Shown here one piece after another: positions 43,747 to 59,560 of a DNA stretch of 64,000 nucleotides. The notes below the pieces were generated by a model that was not told the DNA's origin, ran no database searches, and saw only the letters and a list, made by a program, of their open reading frames with translations. A program made the position numbers and the translations under genes. The stretch covers positions 372,001 through 436,000 of the forward strand of contig NZ_JAJNCU010000003.1 in NCBI RefSeq assembly GCF_021026095.1, in the 5' to 3' direction. Position 1 is the first letter of the stretch. Each line of letters opens with the position of its first letter. Source of the DNA: Salinicoccus halitifaciens. Lineage in GTDB: Bacteria; Bacillota; Bacilli; Staphylococcales; Salinicoccaceae.

Positions 43747-44142
43747 TTATACATATTTACTGCCGGAAATTGTAAGGATTTCAGAAAGCGAATGTGCGAT
43801 GGACGGGGCAAGCACCTGGATGATATTGAATATGATGAAAGAGTTGGCAAAATCGGTGGTGAACATGACGGGGTCATAGGTGATAATCAACAGCAGAGGG
43901 TAGACGGTGACAAGAGTTGCTATGTAATGTACAAAGACGCGTTTTATAAGGCTCCAGCGGCAAATGTGATAAATTGCACTTCCACATCCCAGAAAAAAAG
44001 CGATGAAACCATAATAGAGGAAGGTTCTCACACTATCAGCCGGGCCGATGAACAGGCTCCATATCGAAAGCAGGACAAAGATCGACAAAAGTGCTGCGCC
44101 TCTGAAGAATCCACGAACAAAGAGATTAATATGAACCACCAC
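43747..44142 (-). CDS. DUF3021 membrane protein
   Basis: The protein (up to 131 aa) has four membrane helices: RGAALLSIFVLLSIWSLFIG, FLYYGFIAFFLGCGSAIYHI, VHYIATLVTVYPLLLII and FIIFNIIQVLAPSIAHSL, the layout of DUF3021. The tandem GTG codons at the 5' end have no properly spaced ribosome site. AAAGGTGG lies 8 nt before ATT at 44130, which would give MNLFVRGFFRGAALL, the usual family start. In other Bacillota DUF3021 genes follow LytTR regulators; none is here. Confidence 0.7.
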   Translation of the reverse strand: MVVHINLFVRGFFRGAALLSIFVLLSIWSLFIGPADSVRTFLYYGFIAFFLGCGSAIYHICRWSLIKRVFVHYIATLVTVYPLLLIITYDPVMFTTDFANSFIIFNIIQVLAPSIAHSLSEILTISGSKYV

Positions 44143-44645
44143 CTTTTTGAATAATTGAAGAATTTAGAATCTTTATTACATTATACCGTTAAAAGTCAAG
44201 AAAAAGCACCCCATTTTCAGCAAATTTTTTCAAATAAAGACTTATTCTCACAAATACTGACTCTGTATTTAATGCGGCGGGGCATTTTGAGCGCTCTGGT
44301 TCGCAACCCTCTGGCGGTTCTGGGATCAACCTTGCGGATTGAGTCCATGATTTCGCAACTCTCTGTCGGTTTGGAGTTCAATGTTGCGGATTGAGGCCAT
44401 GATTTCGCAACTCTCTGGCGGTTTGGAGTTCAATGTTGCGGATTGAGGCCATGATTTCGCAACCCTCTGTCGGTTTGGAGTTCAATGTTGCGGATTGAGG
44501 CCATGATTTCGCAACCTCCTGTTGGTTTCGGGAGCAACGTTGCAGCCCGACCGGCCCACGGGTCTTTATTCCATATGAAAATGATTGACCCTCTGCTGCG
44601 GGTGGTATACATAAGATGAATACATCAACTCAAGAGGTGAAATAT
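44143..44645. other. 503-bp non-coding spacer with tandem repeats
   Basis: The first 150 bp are AT-rich with no evident gene; a 79-codon frame at 44155-44394 runs into the repeats and has no ribosome site. From about 44294 to 44547 the 52-bp repeats occupy the region. TTGACC at 44585 and TATACA at 44606 could be a promoter (15-nt spacer) of the gene at 44646. Confidence 0.5.
44294..44547. repeat. 52-bp tandem repeat, about 4.5 copies
   Basis: The anchor TCGCAAC recurs at 44301, 44353, 44405, 44457 and 44509, and TTGCGG at 44332, 44384, 44436 and 44488 (with TTGCAG at 44540), giving an exact 52-nt period. The middle copies are nearly identical and the outer ones diverged. Each unit holds a dyad, CGCAAC and GTTGCG, separated by about 26 nt, so each copy could form a hairpin. 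No spacer variation is present, so it is not a CRISPR. Confidence 0.85.
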
Positions 44646-45065
44646 ATGGAACAGGAAAAAGCGATAGAACGCATCACTGAAATATTGAATGACTCTAAAA
44701 TCGGCATATTATCGACCGCAAAGGACAATGTCCCGAATGCGCGTTACATGTGGTTCTACAATGACGGCATCACATTGTATGCCAAGACGAATGATGAATC
44801 ACCGAAATTCGAGGAGATAGAGGAGAACCCGCAGGGGTTCGTACTGCTCGGCTTCCATGATGAAAAGAATCATGCGTTCGTGGAATATTACGGGGAGATT
44901 GAGGTCATCAGGGACCAGGAGACGATCGACTGGCTGTGGGAGGATGACGACAAGACGTTCTTCGACAATCAGGAGAACCCTCATCTGGTGGCCCTGAAGA
45001 TCAATCCGAGCGCCATCAAAATCATGAATGATGATGAGTTCCAGGATGTACAGCTTTCTCTTTAA
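44646..45065 (+). CDS. Pyridoxamine 5'-phosphate oxidase-like flavin protein
   Basis: The 139-aa protein is a split-barrel flavin-binding protein like general stress protein 26: ILNDSKIGILSTAKDNVPNARYMWF at the N-terminus, then ITLYAKTNDESPKFEEIEENP and VEYYGEIEVI. Relatives bind FMN or FAD and are stress induced, with unclear reactions. The start at 44646 follows AAGAGGTG; the longer ORF from 44616 has no ribosome site. It lies next to the 52-bp repeats. Confidence 0.8.
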   Translation: MEQEKAIERITEILNDSKIGILSTAKDNVPNARYMWFYNDGITLYAKTNDESPKFEEIEENPQGFVLLGFHDEKNHAFVEYYGEIEVIRDQETIDWLWEDDDKTFFDNQENPHLVALKINPSAIKIMNDDEFQDVQLSL

Positions 45066-53972: not shown

Positions 53973-54003
53973 GGAGTGGGGCATCGCCCCGCTTCCAATT
54001 TTC
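53973..54003 (+). terminator. Weak terminator behind the SDR gene
   Basis: GGAG-T-GGGGC pairs with GCCCC-G-CTTCC around ATC, followed by AATTTTC. The short T-run makes it a partial terminator at best. Confidence 0.45.
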
Positions 54004-54020
54004 ATAATAGGAGTGAGCAC

Positions 54021-54764
54021 ATGACTACACATAGAAAATGGGTCCTGGCATACTTTATCTTCTTCGTCCTCATGGTGGTTGCCAATTACACCGCAGGGCA
54101 GATGGGCTCGGATGTAGGCGGGACGGCCAATGAGAATGAAACCATCATCCAGCCGGCAGGATTTGCCTTTTCGATTTGGGGTTTGATCTATACCCTGCTT
54201 TTCATATGGATCATATATTTATTCTTTTCCAAAAAGGATAGATCATACATTACAGAACGTCTGAAATTCTGGCCGATCGCCAATTTCATATTGAATGGCC
54301 TATGGATTTTCGTCTTCACACAGGAGTGGCTCTTTGCTTCCGTCATCGTGATTGCAGCAATGTTGTATACTCTTGCGGAAATTTATACTTCAATCAGCGA
54401 AACCAATCATAACTGGTTCGACAGATTTCCGTTCGCGATATACTTTGCCTGGGTGACACTGGCGACCATCGTCAACATCTTCACATGGGTCACCGACCTC
54501 AATATCGACACCATTTTAGGAATGGGCGAATTGACGTGGACCATACTGCTGCTGATTATAGCAGGCATCATCGGCATTGCGATCGCGATATTCTTCAAAG
54601 ACTGGGTCTATCCGCTTGTCCTGATATGGCCTCTAATCGGCATATATGCAGAAAGCGGCGATGTCTCGACCGGACTCAACATCACATTGCTGATCGTGGG
54701 CATCGCACTTGCGATTATAGCGATTATAGTCATCGTCCAGAAAGCGAGAGCGTTGAGGGTTTAA
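54021..54764 (+). CDS. TspO/MBR-related tryptophan-rich membrane protein
   Basis: The 247-aa protein has about seven hydrophobic segments and tryptophans in the TspO pattern (PAGFAFSIWGLIYTLLFIW, ILNGLWIFVFTQEW, YFAWVTLATIVNIF). Larger than classical TspO (about 160 aa), it belongs to the tryptophan-rich sensory group found in Gram-positives. Relatives bind porphyrins or sterols and respond to oxygen or stress; the role here is open. The start at 54021 follows AGGAGTGAG. Confidence 0.8.
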   Translation: MTTHRKWVLAYFIFFVLMVVANYTAGQMGSDVGGTANENETIIQPAGFAFSIWGLIYTLLFIWIIYLFFSKKDRSYITERLKFWPIANFILNGLWIFVFTQEWLFASVIVIAAMLYTLAEIYTSISETNHNWFDRFPFAIYFAWVTLATIVNIFTWVTDLNIDTILGMGELTWTILLLIIAGIIGIAIAIFFKDWVYPLVLIWPLIGIYAESGDVSTGLNITLLIVGIALAIIAIIVIVQKARALRV

Positions 54765-54817: not shown

Positions 54818-54916
54818 CGGCGGATATCGTATAACTTCTGATTTCGAGAAGACTTATACGATTATGGAGGCGGATATCGTATAACTTCTGATTTCGAGGA
54901 GACTTATACGATTTCG
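54818..54916. repeat. 50-bp tandem dyad repeat, two copies
   Basis: CGGATATCGTATAACTTCTG starts at 54821 and again at 54871, a 50-nt period. Each copy contains ATCGTATAA and its exact complement TTATACGAT around CTTCT-GATTTCG-AGAAG (AGGAG in the second copy), so each can form a long hairpin with the loop GATTTCG. It lies between the TspO-like gene and the terminator of the OCD gene, and there are no T-runs. Confidence 0.75.
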
Positions 54917-55014: not shown

Positions 55015-55962
55015 TCACCGTAAGTTTTTGACTTTCATCACGCCGTTCGCCACTGCAAGGTCGAAATAACCGGCACCGACACATTTGTAGAGGGTGATTT
55101 CCTCACCCGACTGCCTTAAGAACTCCGCATCGAAAATATCTGCGAGGCTGCCGTCGATGTCATCCCATGAGATGATGCCTTCCTCCACTGCCTTGATGAT
55201 TTCGCCCGCTTCTTCCTTGGCACCGTCCATATCATCAAGATAAATCTGTCCGGCTTTCCTCACGGTTTCCATATCCATTTCAATCATTTCGGGTGTGAAT
55301 GAACCGACCCCGTTGAGATGTGTGCCGTCTTTCAACGCGTCACCGTCAAAAACAGGGGTCTTGGACTGGGTGGCACAGTTCACGATATCACTTTCTTCGA
55401 CCAGCCGGTTGACGTCATCCGCAATTTCCACCGGGATCTCGATTCCGAAATCCTGCAAATCCTGTTTGAACGTTTCGGCTTTGCTCCGTGTCCTGTTGAA
55501 TAAAACCATCTTCCTGATTTTGCGGACTTCAAGTACGCCGAGAACCTGTTCGAAGGCCATCCTGCCGGTGCCGATCACACCGAGCACGCCGGCATCTTTC
55601 CTTGCGAGTTTATCTGTCGCAATGGCGGTCATCGCCCCGGTGCGCAATCTCGTCAAATAGGATGCTTCAAGGGAGGCGATGTGTTTGCCGTCATTCAGAT
55701 CAGTAACAAGGATATTGCCCTGGGTCGTCGGCAGATCGGCGTTTTCCGGAAAAATCGACACCGTTTTGATGATCGAGACTTTCTGTTCCGTGCTGATGCA
55801 TGGCATATACAGCATGGACGAATGATCGCTCGCAGGCAGGACGATCCTGTTCGCCTCCACCAGCCTGCCGTTCCTGTAATCATCCAAAATCATCTTCACA
55901 TCTTCAATCGCATGATGAATCCTGTAAGTTTCCTGAATCTCTCCATCCGTTAAGAAATGCAT
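55015..55962 (-). CDS. Ornithine cyclodeaminase/mu-crystallin family dehydrogenase
   Basis: The 315-aa NAD(P)-binding protein has the OCD signature: LYMPCISTEQKVSIIKTVSIFPEN, then LTRLRTGAMTAIATDKLARKDAGVLGVIGTGRMAFEQVLG with the Rossmann GTGRMA. Members act as ornithine cyclodeaminase, alanine dehydrogenase or imine (ketimine) reductase. It is downstream of a flavin amino-acid oxidase in the same operon (71-nt gap), where an imine reductase partner would make sense; this is inference. AAGGGAGAA precedes the ATG. Confidence 0.85.
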   Translation of the reverse strand: MHFLTDGEIQETYRIHHAIEDVKMILDDYRNGRLVEANRIVLPASDHSSMLYMPCISTEQKVSIIKTVSIFPENADLPTTQGNILVTDLNDGKHIASLEASYLTRLRTGAMTAIATDKLARKDAGVLGVIGTGRMAFEQVLGVLEVRKIRKMVLFNRTRSKAETFKQDLQDFGIEIPVEIADDVNRLVEESDIVNCATQSKTPVFDGDALKDGTHLNGVGSFTPEMIEMDMETVRKAGQIYLDDMDGAKEEAGEIIKAVEEGIISWDDIDGSLADIFDAEFLRQSGEEITLYKCVGAGYFDLAVANGVMKVKNLR

Positions 55963-59433: not shown

Positions 59434-59441
59434 CATTCTCC

Positions 59442-59473
59442 TTAGTTTTTTATACAGGGAGTTTGCGAACCTG
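59442..59473 (-). ncRNA. preQ1-I riboswitch controlling queT
   Basis: On the minus strand the leader reads CAGG-TTCGCAAAC-TCCCTG followed by TATAAAAAACTAA. This matches the class I preQ1 aptamer: short GC stem (CAGG/CCTG-like pairing), a loop with TTCGCAAAC and the A-rich tail whose CUAA pairs back. The tail runs straight into AAGGAG of queT, so ligand binding would hide the ribosome site (translational control). A TATAAT lies 30 nt upstream (59503-59508). Confidence 0.85.
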
Positions 59474-59560
59474 TGGATGGAACTTTTACAAACTGCCATA
59501 CTATTATAGCAGATTCATCACCGGGGGGCGCCTCTTGGGGTGACAGAAAAATGATAAATT

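Follow-up and report, generated by a model that had tools for sequence, protein, structure and literature searches.

Tandem arrays of inverted words at exact spacing in Salinicoccus: candidate helically phased binding sites for a DNA-wrapping protein

Salinicoccus halitifaciens carries a family of intergenic tandem arrays, here called TTCGYAAS arrays, in which the word WTTCGYAASNTT alternates with its inverse at exact distances. Both the words and the distances are under constraint, and the arrays recur at many loci and in more than one species. Units of 50-52 bp have a sequence rhythm of about 10.2 bp, and arrays of this general kind are biased towards the gaps between convergent genes. We infer that the arrays bind a protein, that the DNA is bent or wrapped there and that this serves chromosome topology. 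More specifically, we see a nearly even chance that they are helically phased arrays of paired inverted sites for a dedicated DNA-bending or DNA-wrapping protein with a role in topology at gene ends.

Anatomy of the array in the window

The window is the whole stretch of 64,000 nucleotides that was analysed. TRF reports a repeat in it at 44300-44528 (period 52, 4.4 copies, 92% match, score 363). The initial annotation had described a 52-nt tandem repeat with diverged outer copies in a spacer of about 500 bp, which TRF and the motif reading confirm, and a CGCAAC/GTTGCG dyad in each unit, which is real. Every unit has WTTCGYAASNTT twice, the two copies facing in opposite directions. A sites (TTCGCAAC) start at 44300, 44352, 44404, 44456 and 44508, and B sites, which are GTTGCGRA-like and the inverse of A, start at 44331, 44383, 44435, 44487 and 44539; from start to start, A to B is always +31 and B to the next A +21. 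The diverged B sites are the first (CTTGCGGA) and the last (GTTGCAGC). The array occupies a gap of about 0.5 kb between divergent genes. The features are as follows.

44300..44546, no strand: whole array, five 52-bp dyad units with ten motif sites (TRF, sequence and motif chain; 9 of 10 sites scored)
44300..44338, no strand: dyad unit 1; A 44300-44307, TTCGCAAC; B 44331-44338, CTTGCGGA, diverged (sequence)
44352..44390, no strand: dyad unit 2; A 44352-44359; B 44383-44390, GTTGCGGA (sequence)
44404..44442, no strand: dyad unit 3; A 44404-44411; B 44435-44442 (sequence)
44456..44494, no strand: dyad unit 4; A 44456-44463; B 44487-44494 (sequence)
44508..44546, no strand: dyad unit 5; A 44508-44515; B 44539-44546, GTTGCAGC, degenerate (sequence)
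43747..44142, minus strand: left neighbour gene, DUF3021, 131 aa, transcribed away from the array (ORF; Pfam PF11457, E 7.4e-7)
44616..45065, plus strand: right neighbour gene, pyridoxamine-phosphate-oxidase (PNPOx) family, transcribed away from the array (ORF; Pfam PF01243, E 7.6e-17)
54826..54912, no strand: second array of the window, two 50-bp units with arms ATCGTATAA / TTATACGAT (TRF 54819-54913, period 50; arms, sequence and ORFs)

The DUF3021 neighbour is also present at the corresponding S. kekensis locus (L113) and at L180 of G001, another Salinicoccus genome, and close matches to the PNPOx-family neighbour occur in 6/6 Salinicoccus genomes. For the latter gene an alternative start at 44646 is possible, with a better ribosome site by eye, and its promoter-like stretch, likewise judged by eye, falls at 44585-44611, outside the array.

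Sequence model R1, built in part from the window array, has that array as its sole match in the 64-kb window at E up to 5. The second array lies between convergent ORFs (53976-54764, plus strand, and 55015-55962, minus strand). We rejected an uptake-sequence-like role of the single word, the core TCGYAASNTT having 3 matches in the window against 1.8 expected, with 29 of 100 shuffles as high. Elsewhere, the window holds a PreQ1 riboswitch (59436-59479, minus strand; Rfam RF00522, 51.2 bits).

Distribution of the family

Searching the own genome (S. halitifaciens) with the window array returned 21 matches at E up to 10, of which seven, the array included, fell below 1e-4. A pattern with the measured spacing and at most two mismatches matched 80 times per strand, versus 0 for the reversed control. 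The 15 arrays fetched from the own genome are a minimum for it; 13 were fetched from S. kekensis DSM 23173 (G002). The suggestion that the repeat belongs to an intergenic family is thus borne out. The genome-wide search for the unit found many loci, which contradicts the picture of a single locus with constant copy number.

Across a named collection of 84,980 species, the only one in which we found the strict pattern was S. kekensis, the records of the own genome possibly lying outside that collection. Among 157 genomes from the order, the exact dyad pattern is confined to three, each from Salinicoccus; it misses the arrays of the Salinicoccus genome G005, whose arms end differently and which profile models recover. 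In a set of 33 genomes from the family, profile R1 has matches with E below 0.01 in Salinicoccus alone. Profile R2, applied to the 157 genomes at E up to 0.001, finds four Salinicoccus genomes and G099; we take the G099 match to be chance, as that stretch has neither a TRF tandem repeat nor a clear dyad. Viral contigs gave no match to the exact patterns of either motif version, and plasmids none to the window array.

Each genome has one imperfect parS-like site marking a possible origin region, with a second, weaker one in G005; some arrays lie near that region and others on different contigs. A separate 51-bp family around TCCGGAT adjoins or lies near some TTCGYAAS arrays (L091:4073-4341, L106:3435-3684, L112:2928-3280 and L084:7197-7507), and part of it is open in one frame, with PASPSGSGD-like repeats.

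Constraint on words and distances

Taking a two-unit stretch from every one of the 28 S. halitifaciens and S. kekensis arrays, we obtained an alignment free of gaps over 97 columns. The consensus is WTTCGYAASNTT plus its inverse; core positions C, G, A and A are near invariant, and the linkers differ. Spacings between sites are exactly 31 or 21 in 303 of 306 cases, in a count that permitted shifts of up to four bases at low cost, and the three odd spacings are each one base short and at most two spacings from an array end.

Pairwise comparison of units within arrays gives differences of 4.7% in the core versus 24.2% in the linkers, the linkers varying more than the core in 26 of 28 arrays and equally in one; by variability, the motif frame comes first among 52 circular shifts. 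For the G005 arrays the core is less variable in 5/5, and the motif frame ranks second of 51. A broader comparison took in 36 arrays that passed length and arm filters. There, the arms vary less than the rest of the unit in 16/17 arrays at TTCGYAAS loci, in 11/11 other Salinicoccus arrays and in 8/8 arrays of G014, a genome of another genus of the family; taken singly, few arrays stand out in the circular-shift test, where 0 to 28 shifts score as high.

As to the distances, the linkers have 443 or more substitutions versus 3 changes of spacing. Flanks of the same loci, compared between the own genome and S. kekensis, show 35 indels per 277 substitutions, from which about 56 linker indels would be expected; this comparison leaves out one low-scoring flank of the 26, and it includes some coding positions, which make the expectation smaller. 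Homogenisation could also erase odd units and longer indels may end a counted array, and the exact spacing could derive in part from homogenisation between copies.

Array loci across species

Each of the 13 S. kekensis arrays has beside it one or more genes whose proteins recur at an array locus of the own genome (87-99% identity). At these orthologous loci, linkers are each other's best match in 12 of 13 cases (one tie), the exception being L105/L108. Two own-genome arrays, L096 and L097, lack a fetched partner. L096 has as its S. kekensis counterpart (L200:11509-11860) a different 51-bp array with arms CTGCTCATTC/GAATGAGCAG, and L097 is matched there by a lone dyad. Five weak model matches in G001 adjoin genes that also flank array loci of the own genome; they are mostly single or few dyads, one with 30-bp spacing. 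At the window locus itself, nine scored sites in the own genome correspond to 12 in S. kekensis and to one degenerate dyad with 31-bp spacing in G001, which bears out, between species, the earlier impression of a locus that expands and contracts. Arrays therefore expand from single dyads or contract to them.

Five arrays fetched from G005 are built on an altered word, TTCGTAAG, in a 51-bp unit (30+21) with 0/58 odd spacings, and at one of the G005 array loci G004, also of Salinicoccus, has a single 51-bp array whose word is altered in yet another way. Two of the G005 arrays occupy loci that hold TTCGCAAC arrays in the own genome, one beside a DHH-family gene and the other beside a putative yidC (judged by sequence), with a NERD-domain gene on its other side. 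No linker homology between G005 and the own genome was detected at these two loci, so that the arrays may have grown independently at the same site. At another locus, matched across three species by 86-90% DNA identity, the 50-bp arrays differ in their words: TCGTAT in both arms in the own genome, TCGATT in both arms in G001, and an intermediate, less regular form in S. kekensis.

Further repeats were seen in these genomes. A 41-bp array (TTAACGGACCGTCCC...) is common to G005 and G004 (L169:446-766 and L176:437-556). Upstream of the relative of the window gene in G005, at the position of the window array, irregular repeats around TTTCGATTTGAGG occupy about 1320-1460 of L181. A 327-bp stretch at L165:4082-4698 of G005 is present in 1.9 tandem copies (75% match) and overlaps a gene adjoining a TTCGTAAG array.

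Arm pairing

TTCGYAAS stems have 79.4% paired cells versus 83.2% in shuffles, and 4 changes on both sides versus 15.3 by shuffling; an alternative stem of the same set has zero. Across 37 arrays of several motif families, compensations on both sides number 4 versus 3.3 by shuffling, and 64 single changes (cells) break a pair. RNAalifold reports one pair with one both-sided change, and no Rfam covariance model matches over the window array at gathering score. The arms show no covariation, and so it is the individual words, not their pairing, that are preserved. Two ideas of the initial annotation, the dyad as a folding unit and the array as a source of small RNAs, find no support here.

A wider class of non-coding arrays

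We surveyed about 400 kb from each of five genomes by TRF for non-coding arrays with units of at least 30 bp: the own genome, G005 and G001 from Salinicoccus, and G014 and G022 from two other genera of the family. The own genome yielded 12 arrays (five of 41 bp, one of 50, five of 51 and one of 93), G005 four and G001 three of 51 bp, and G014 sixteen of 41 bp plus one of 51 bp; the 400 kb of G022 held none. Unit length is 41 or 50-51 bp in 35 of 36 sampled arrays, which are not 36 independent cases, as arrays of the same genome may be related. Six further sampled arrays have units of 12 to 25 bp.

Counting as clear an inverted pair of 7 bp exact or 9 bp with one mismatch, 20 of 35 unit consensuses contain one, versus about 1.6 expected from shuffled units, and 15 do not. 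The stronger statement that every sampled array has inverted arms fell to the shuffle control, and weaker one-mismatch pairs may be chance. Words vary among the arrays (TCGATTA, CTGCTCAY, CGTTTAG, ATCGGCCAA, ACAACGG and others), and so does the arm spacing within the unit from family to family, being for example 14/27 in 41-bp units of G014. The 41-bp arrays of G014 (L282-L301) comprise several motif families, such as ACAACGG/CCGTTGT, and about half are without a clear inverted pair. In open-access papers we found no description of this class of arrays.

Helix rhythm and gene context

The unit lengths 41 and 51 are in the ratio of four to five turns at about 10.2 bp per turn. Within units of 50-52 bp, A/T versus G/C alternation has its power concentrated in the fifth harmonic, which corresponds to about 10.2 bp. 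This harmonic takes 0.110 of the power in 18 TTCGYAAS arrays, a non-independent set with one common motif, versus 0.039 in genomic DNA (0/5000 resamples). In seven other 50-52-bp arrays that share no 8-mer it is 0.089 versus 0.039 (9/5000; 17/5000 against a stop-rich background). The eighth harmonic is raised in these units as well. For 41-bp units, G014 as a whole has a strong rhythm (0/5000), which is not significant once related arrays are collapsed (628/5000), and neither is that of Salinicoccus (482/5000). The rhythm of about 10.2 bp is therefore shown for the five-turn class of 50-52 bp only.

Gene context was counted on mechanical ORFs, several of the listed array neighbours being spurious. 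With gene calls of this kind, gaps with arrays are convergent in 7/15 cases versus 154/1003 other gaps in the Salinicoccus samples (Fisher p 0.005), and in 10/17 versus 33/313 in the G014 sample (Fisher p 5e-6). Against gaps of 60 bp or more, the bias has p 0.013 in Salinicoccus and 4e-6 in G014. No array gap is divergent (0/32), whereas 136/1003 of the other gaps in Salinicoccus and 38/313 in G014 are. The window array, with its divergent neighbours, is an exception to these 32 counted gaps.

Discussion

How might such arrays work? We envision that the site is the word of about 12 bp, WTTCGYAASNTT, and that a putative sequence-specific DNA-binding protein bends or wraps the DNA to which it binds. 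Two facing sites would form a dyad of 39 bp, and dyads recurring every 52 bp, or roughly five helical turns, would present equivalent sites on nearly the same face, such that bound dimers could stack along the DNA. Single dyads would expand into arrays by tandem duplication, and selection would hold the words and distances while linkers drift. Given that arrays favour convergent gene ends and avoid divergent gaps, they would probably influence DNA topology or the folding of the chromosome instead of switching promoters. Consistent with separate recognition of each half-site, the arms vary independently and paired changes are not in excess. Between species, the words change jointly in both arms and at separate loci, and the occurrence of the altered word at separate loci of G005 points to a factor in trans and would be expected if such a recogniser had changed. 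A protein-binding array thus appears to be the best of the three options that the initial annotation had offered, judging by the constraint on motif and spacing.

Several observations sit uneasily with a single dedicated protein. Unrelated words share the same unit lengths, and reading them would take more than one protein or a single protein of low specificity. Of the 35 sampled arrays, 15 are without a clear inverted pair in their consensus. Arm spacing that differs between families speaks against a general phasing of half-sites, and whether 31 and 21 bp amount to whole turns depends on the base chosen as the centre of the site. The topology role at gene ends has to accommodate a window array that itself lies between divergent genes. 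Most troublesome are the many words and the arrays of the same unit lengths that have no clear inverted words, which would imply either several proteins or a less specific reader such as gyrase.

The latter is the main rival. The arrays might serve DNA gyrase or some general nucleoid protein as landing sites, much as BIME-2 does in E. coli. DNA made easy to wrap by the G/C rhythm of about 10 bp would then absorb positive supercoils downstream of genes, and the exact words would matter little. We consider this a minority prospect, if a serious one. The rhythm in 50-52-bp units of unrelated sequence, the enrichment between convergent genes and the arrays of equal unit length that have no clear inverted words are all in its favour. 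In E. coli, published gyrase sites show enrichment downstream of operons with high transcription, have a phased 10-bp variation in G/C and are over-represented in BIME-2 (PMC6379681), elements that bind gyrase (PMC2817692, PMC6379681). Yet near-invariant words with a CGYAA core exceed what a signal for bendability requires. Gyrase, moreover, occurs universally, whereas the 400 kb of G022, a genome from this family, contain no non-coding array. Alternatively, the arrays may be selfish or neutral satellite repeats that spread by slippage, were homogenised and have no function, the motif being that of the founder. The difference in copy number at the same locus between species would fit, as would linkers that are locus-specific and homogenised within arrays. 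This we regard as unlikely, because motif positions evolve far more slowly than linkers within the same array and small linker indels are rare, a combination that slippage alone does not explain, and because arrays have been retained at the same site in two species at 13 loci.

RNA hairpins at transcript ends, whether terminators, mRNA stabilisers or small RNAs, would account for the inverted arms of 28/28 TTCGYAAS arrays and of 20/35 sampled arrays, and for the avoidance of divergent gaps. The lack of covariation, the commonness of pair-breaking changes in the arms, the missing Rfam match at gathering score and a repeat length matched to the DNA helix, which is unexpected for RNA, make this improbable. 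Even less probable, to the point of being scarcely credible, are mobile palindromes of the REP/RAYT type or miniature transposons. Their layout of dispersed intergenic inverted units, single and in alternating arrays, is that described for BIMEs (PMC2817692). However, the Y1 transposase (PF01797, IS200/IS605-like) was absent from G000, G001, G002, G004 and G005 at E up to 0.001 and present in 5 of 14 control genomes; its sole match among six Salinicoccus genomes is in G003, where R1 gives one match at E 0.8. Arrays with locus-specific linkers at matching loci of two species, and the empty searches of viral contigs and plasmids, likewise argue against mobility. The G003 match itself is a transposase fragment (C70, locus L177).

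Among known repeats, the arrays resemble STAR and BIME elements but are members of neither. A likeness to staphylococcal STAR elements, raised in the initial annotation, holds in part, and of the known kinds these come closest. According to PMC3532100, STAR elements are direct repeats of a 14-bp motif, T(G/A/T)TGTTG(G/T)GGCCC(C/A), with spacers of 40-44 bp at the gapR locus. That paper describes no function for them and found no neighbourhood common to two species. Like the arrays reported here, they are intergenic and found at many loci, with a short constant motif in a tandem unit of about 50 nt; locus-specific spacers and variable copy number are present in both. In contrast, the motif of the 28 arrays is WTTCGYAASNTT, the sites form inverted pairs at 31/21 spacing instead of direct repeats with spacers of about 40-44 bp, and the loci are common to species. 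Taken as a whole, the interpretation given in that annotation is partly supported.

BIME and REP elements are extragenic units of alternating orientation that partly form tandem arrays, as do ours (PMC2817692). Set against BIMEs, the TTCGYAAS unit is 51-52 bp, a cognate Y1 transposase is missing from the array-bearing genomes, and compensatory changes on both sides are not in excess. CRISPR arrays have unique spacers, whereas the linkers here are near-copies of each other within an array; ten proteins flanking arrays, compared with Pfam, belonged to families other than cas or were unmatched. For the same genus, the genome report of Salinicoccus halodurans H3B36 counts 58 tandem repeats by Tandem Repeats Finder (PMC4667468); in the portion that concerns repeats this is a count alone, without family, motif or period.

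From a broader perspective, some members of the Salinicoccus family may possess a chromosome-organising system, phased to the helix, that has gone unrecognised in Bacillota. We put this forward tentatively, as a possibility rather than an expectation. It would consist of tens of non-coding tandem arrays per genome, as extrapolated from the 400-kb samples, with unit length set by the helix (41 bp for about four turns and 50-52 bp for about five), many of them built on inverted words and read as if by fast-evolving proteins. The precise geometry, the measurable constraint on words and spacing, and the natural variants (52 versus 51 bp, TTCGCAAC versus TTCGTAAG, two of them at the same loci) make the reader of these arrays directly testable. 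If units of 41 and 50-52 bp do reflect helical turns, then the arrays would provide a natural ruler for the stacking of bacterial proteins on DNA where genes end.
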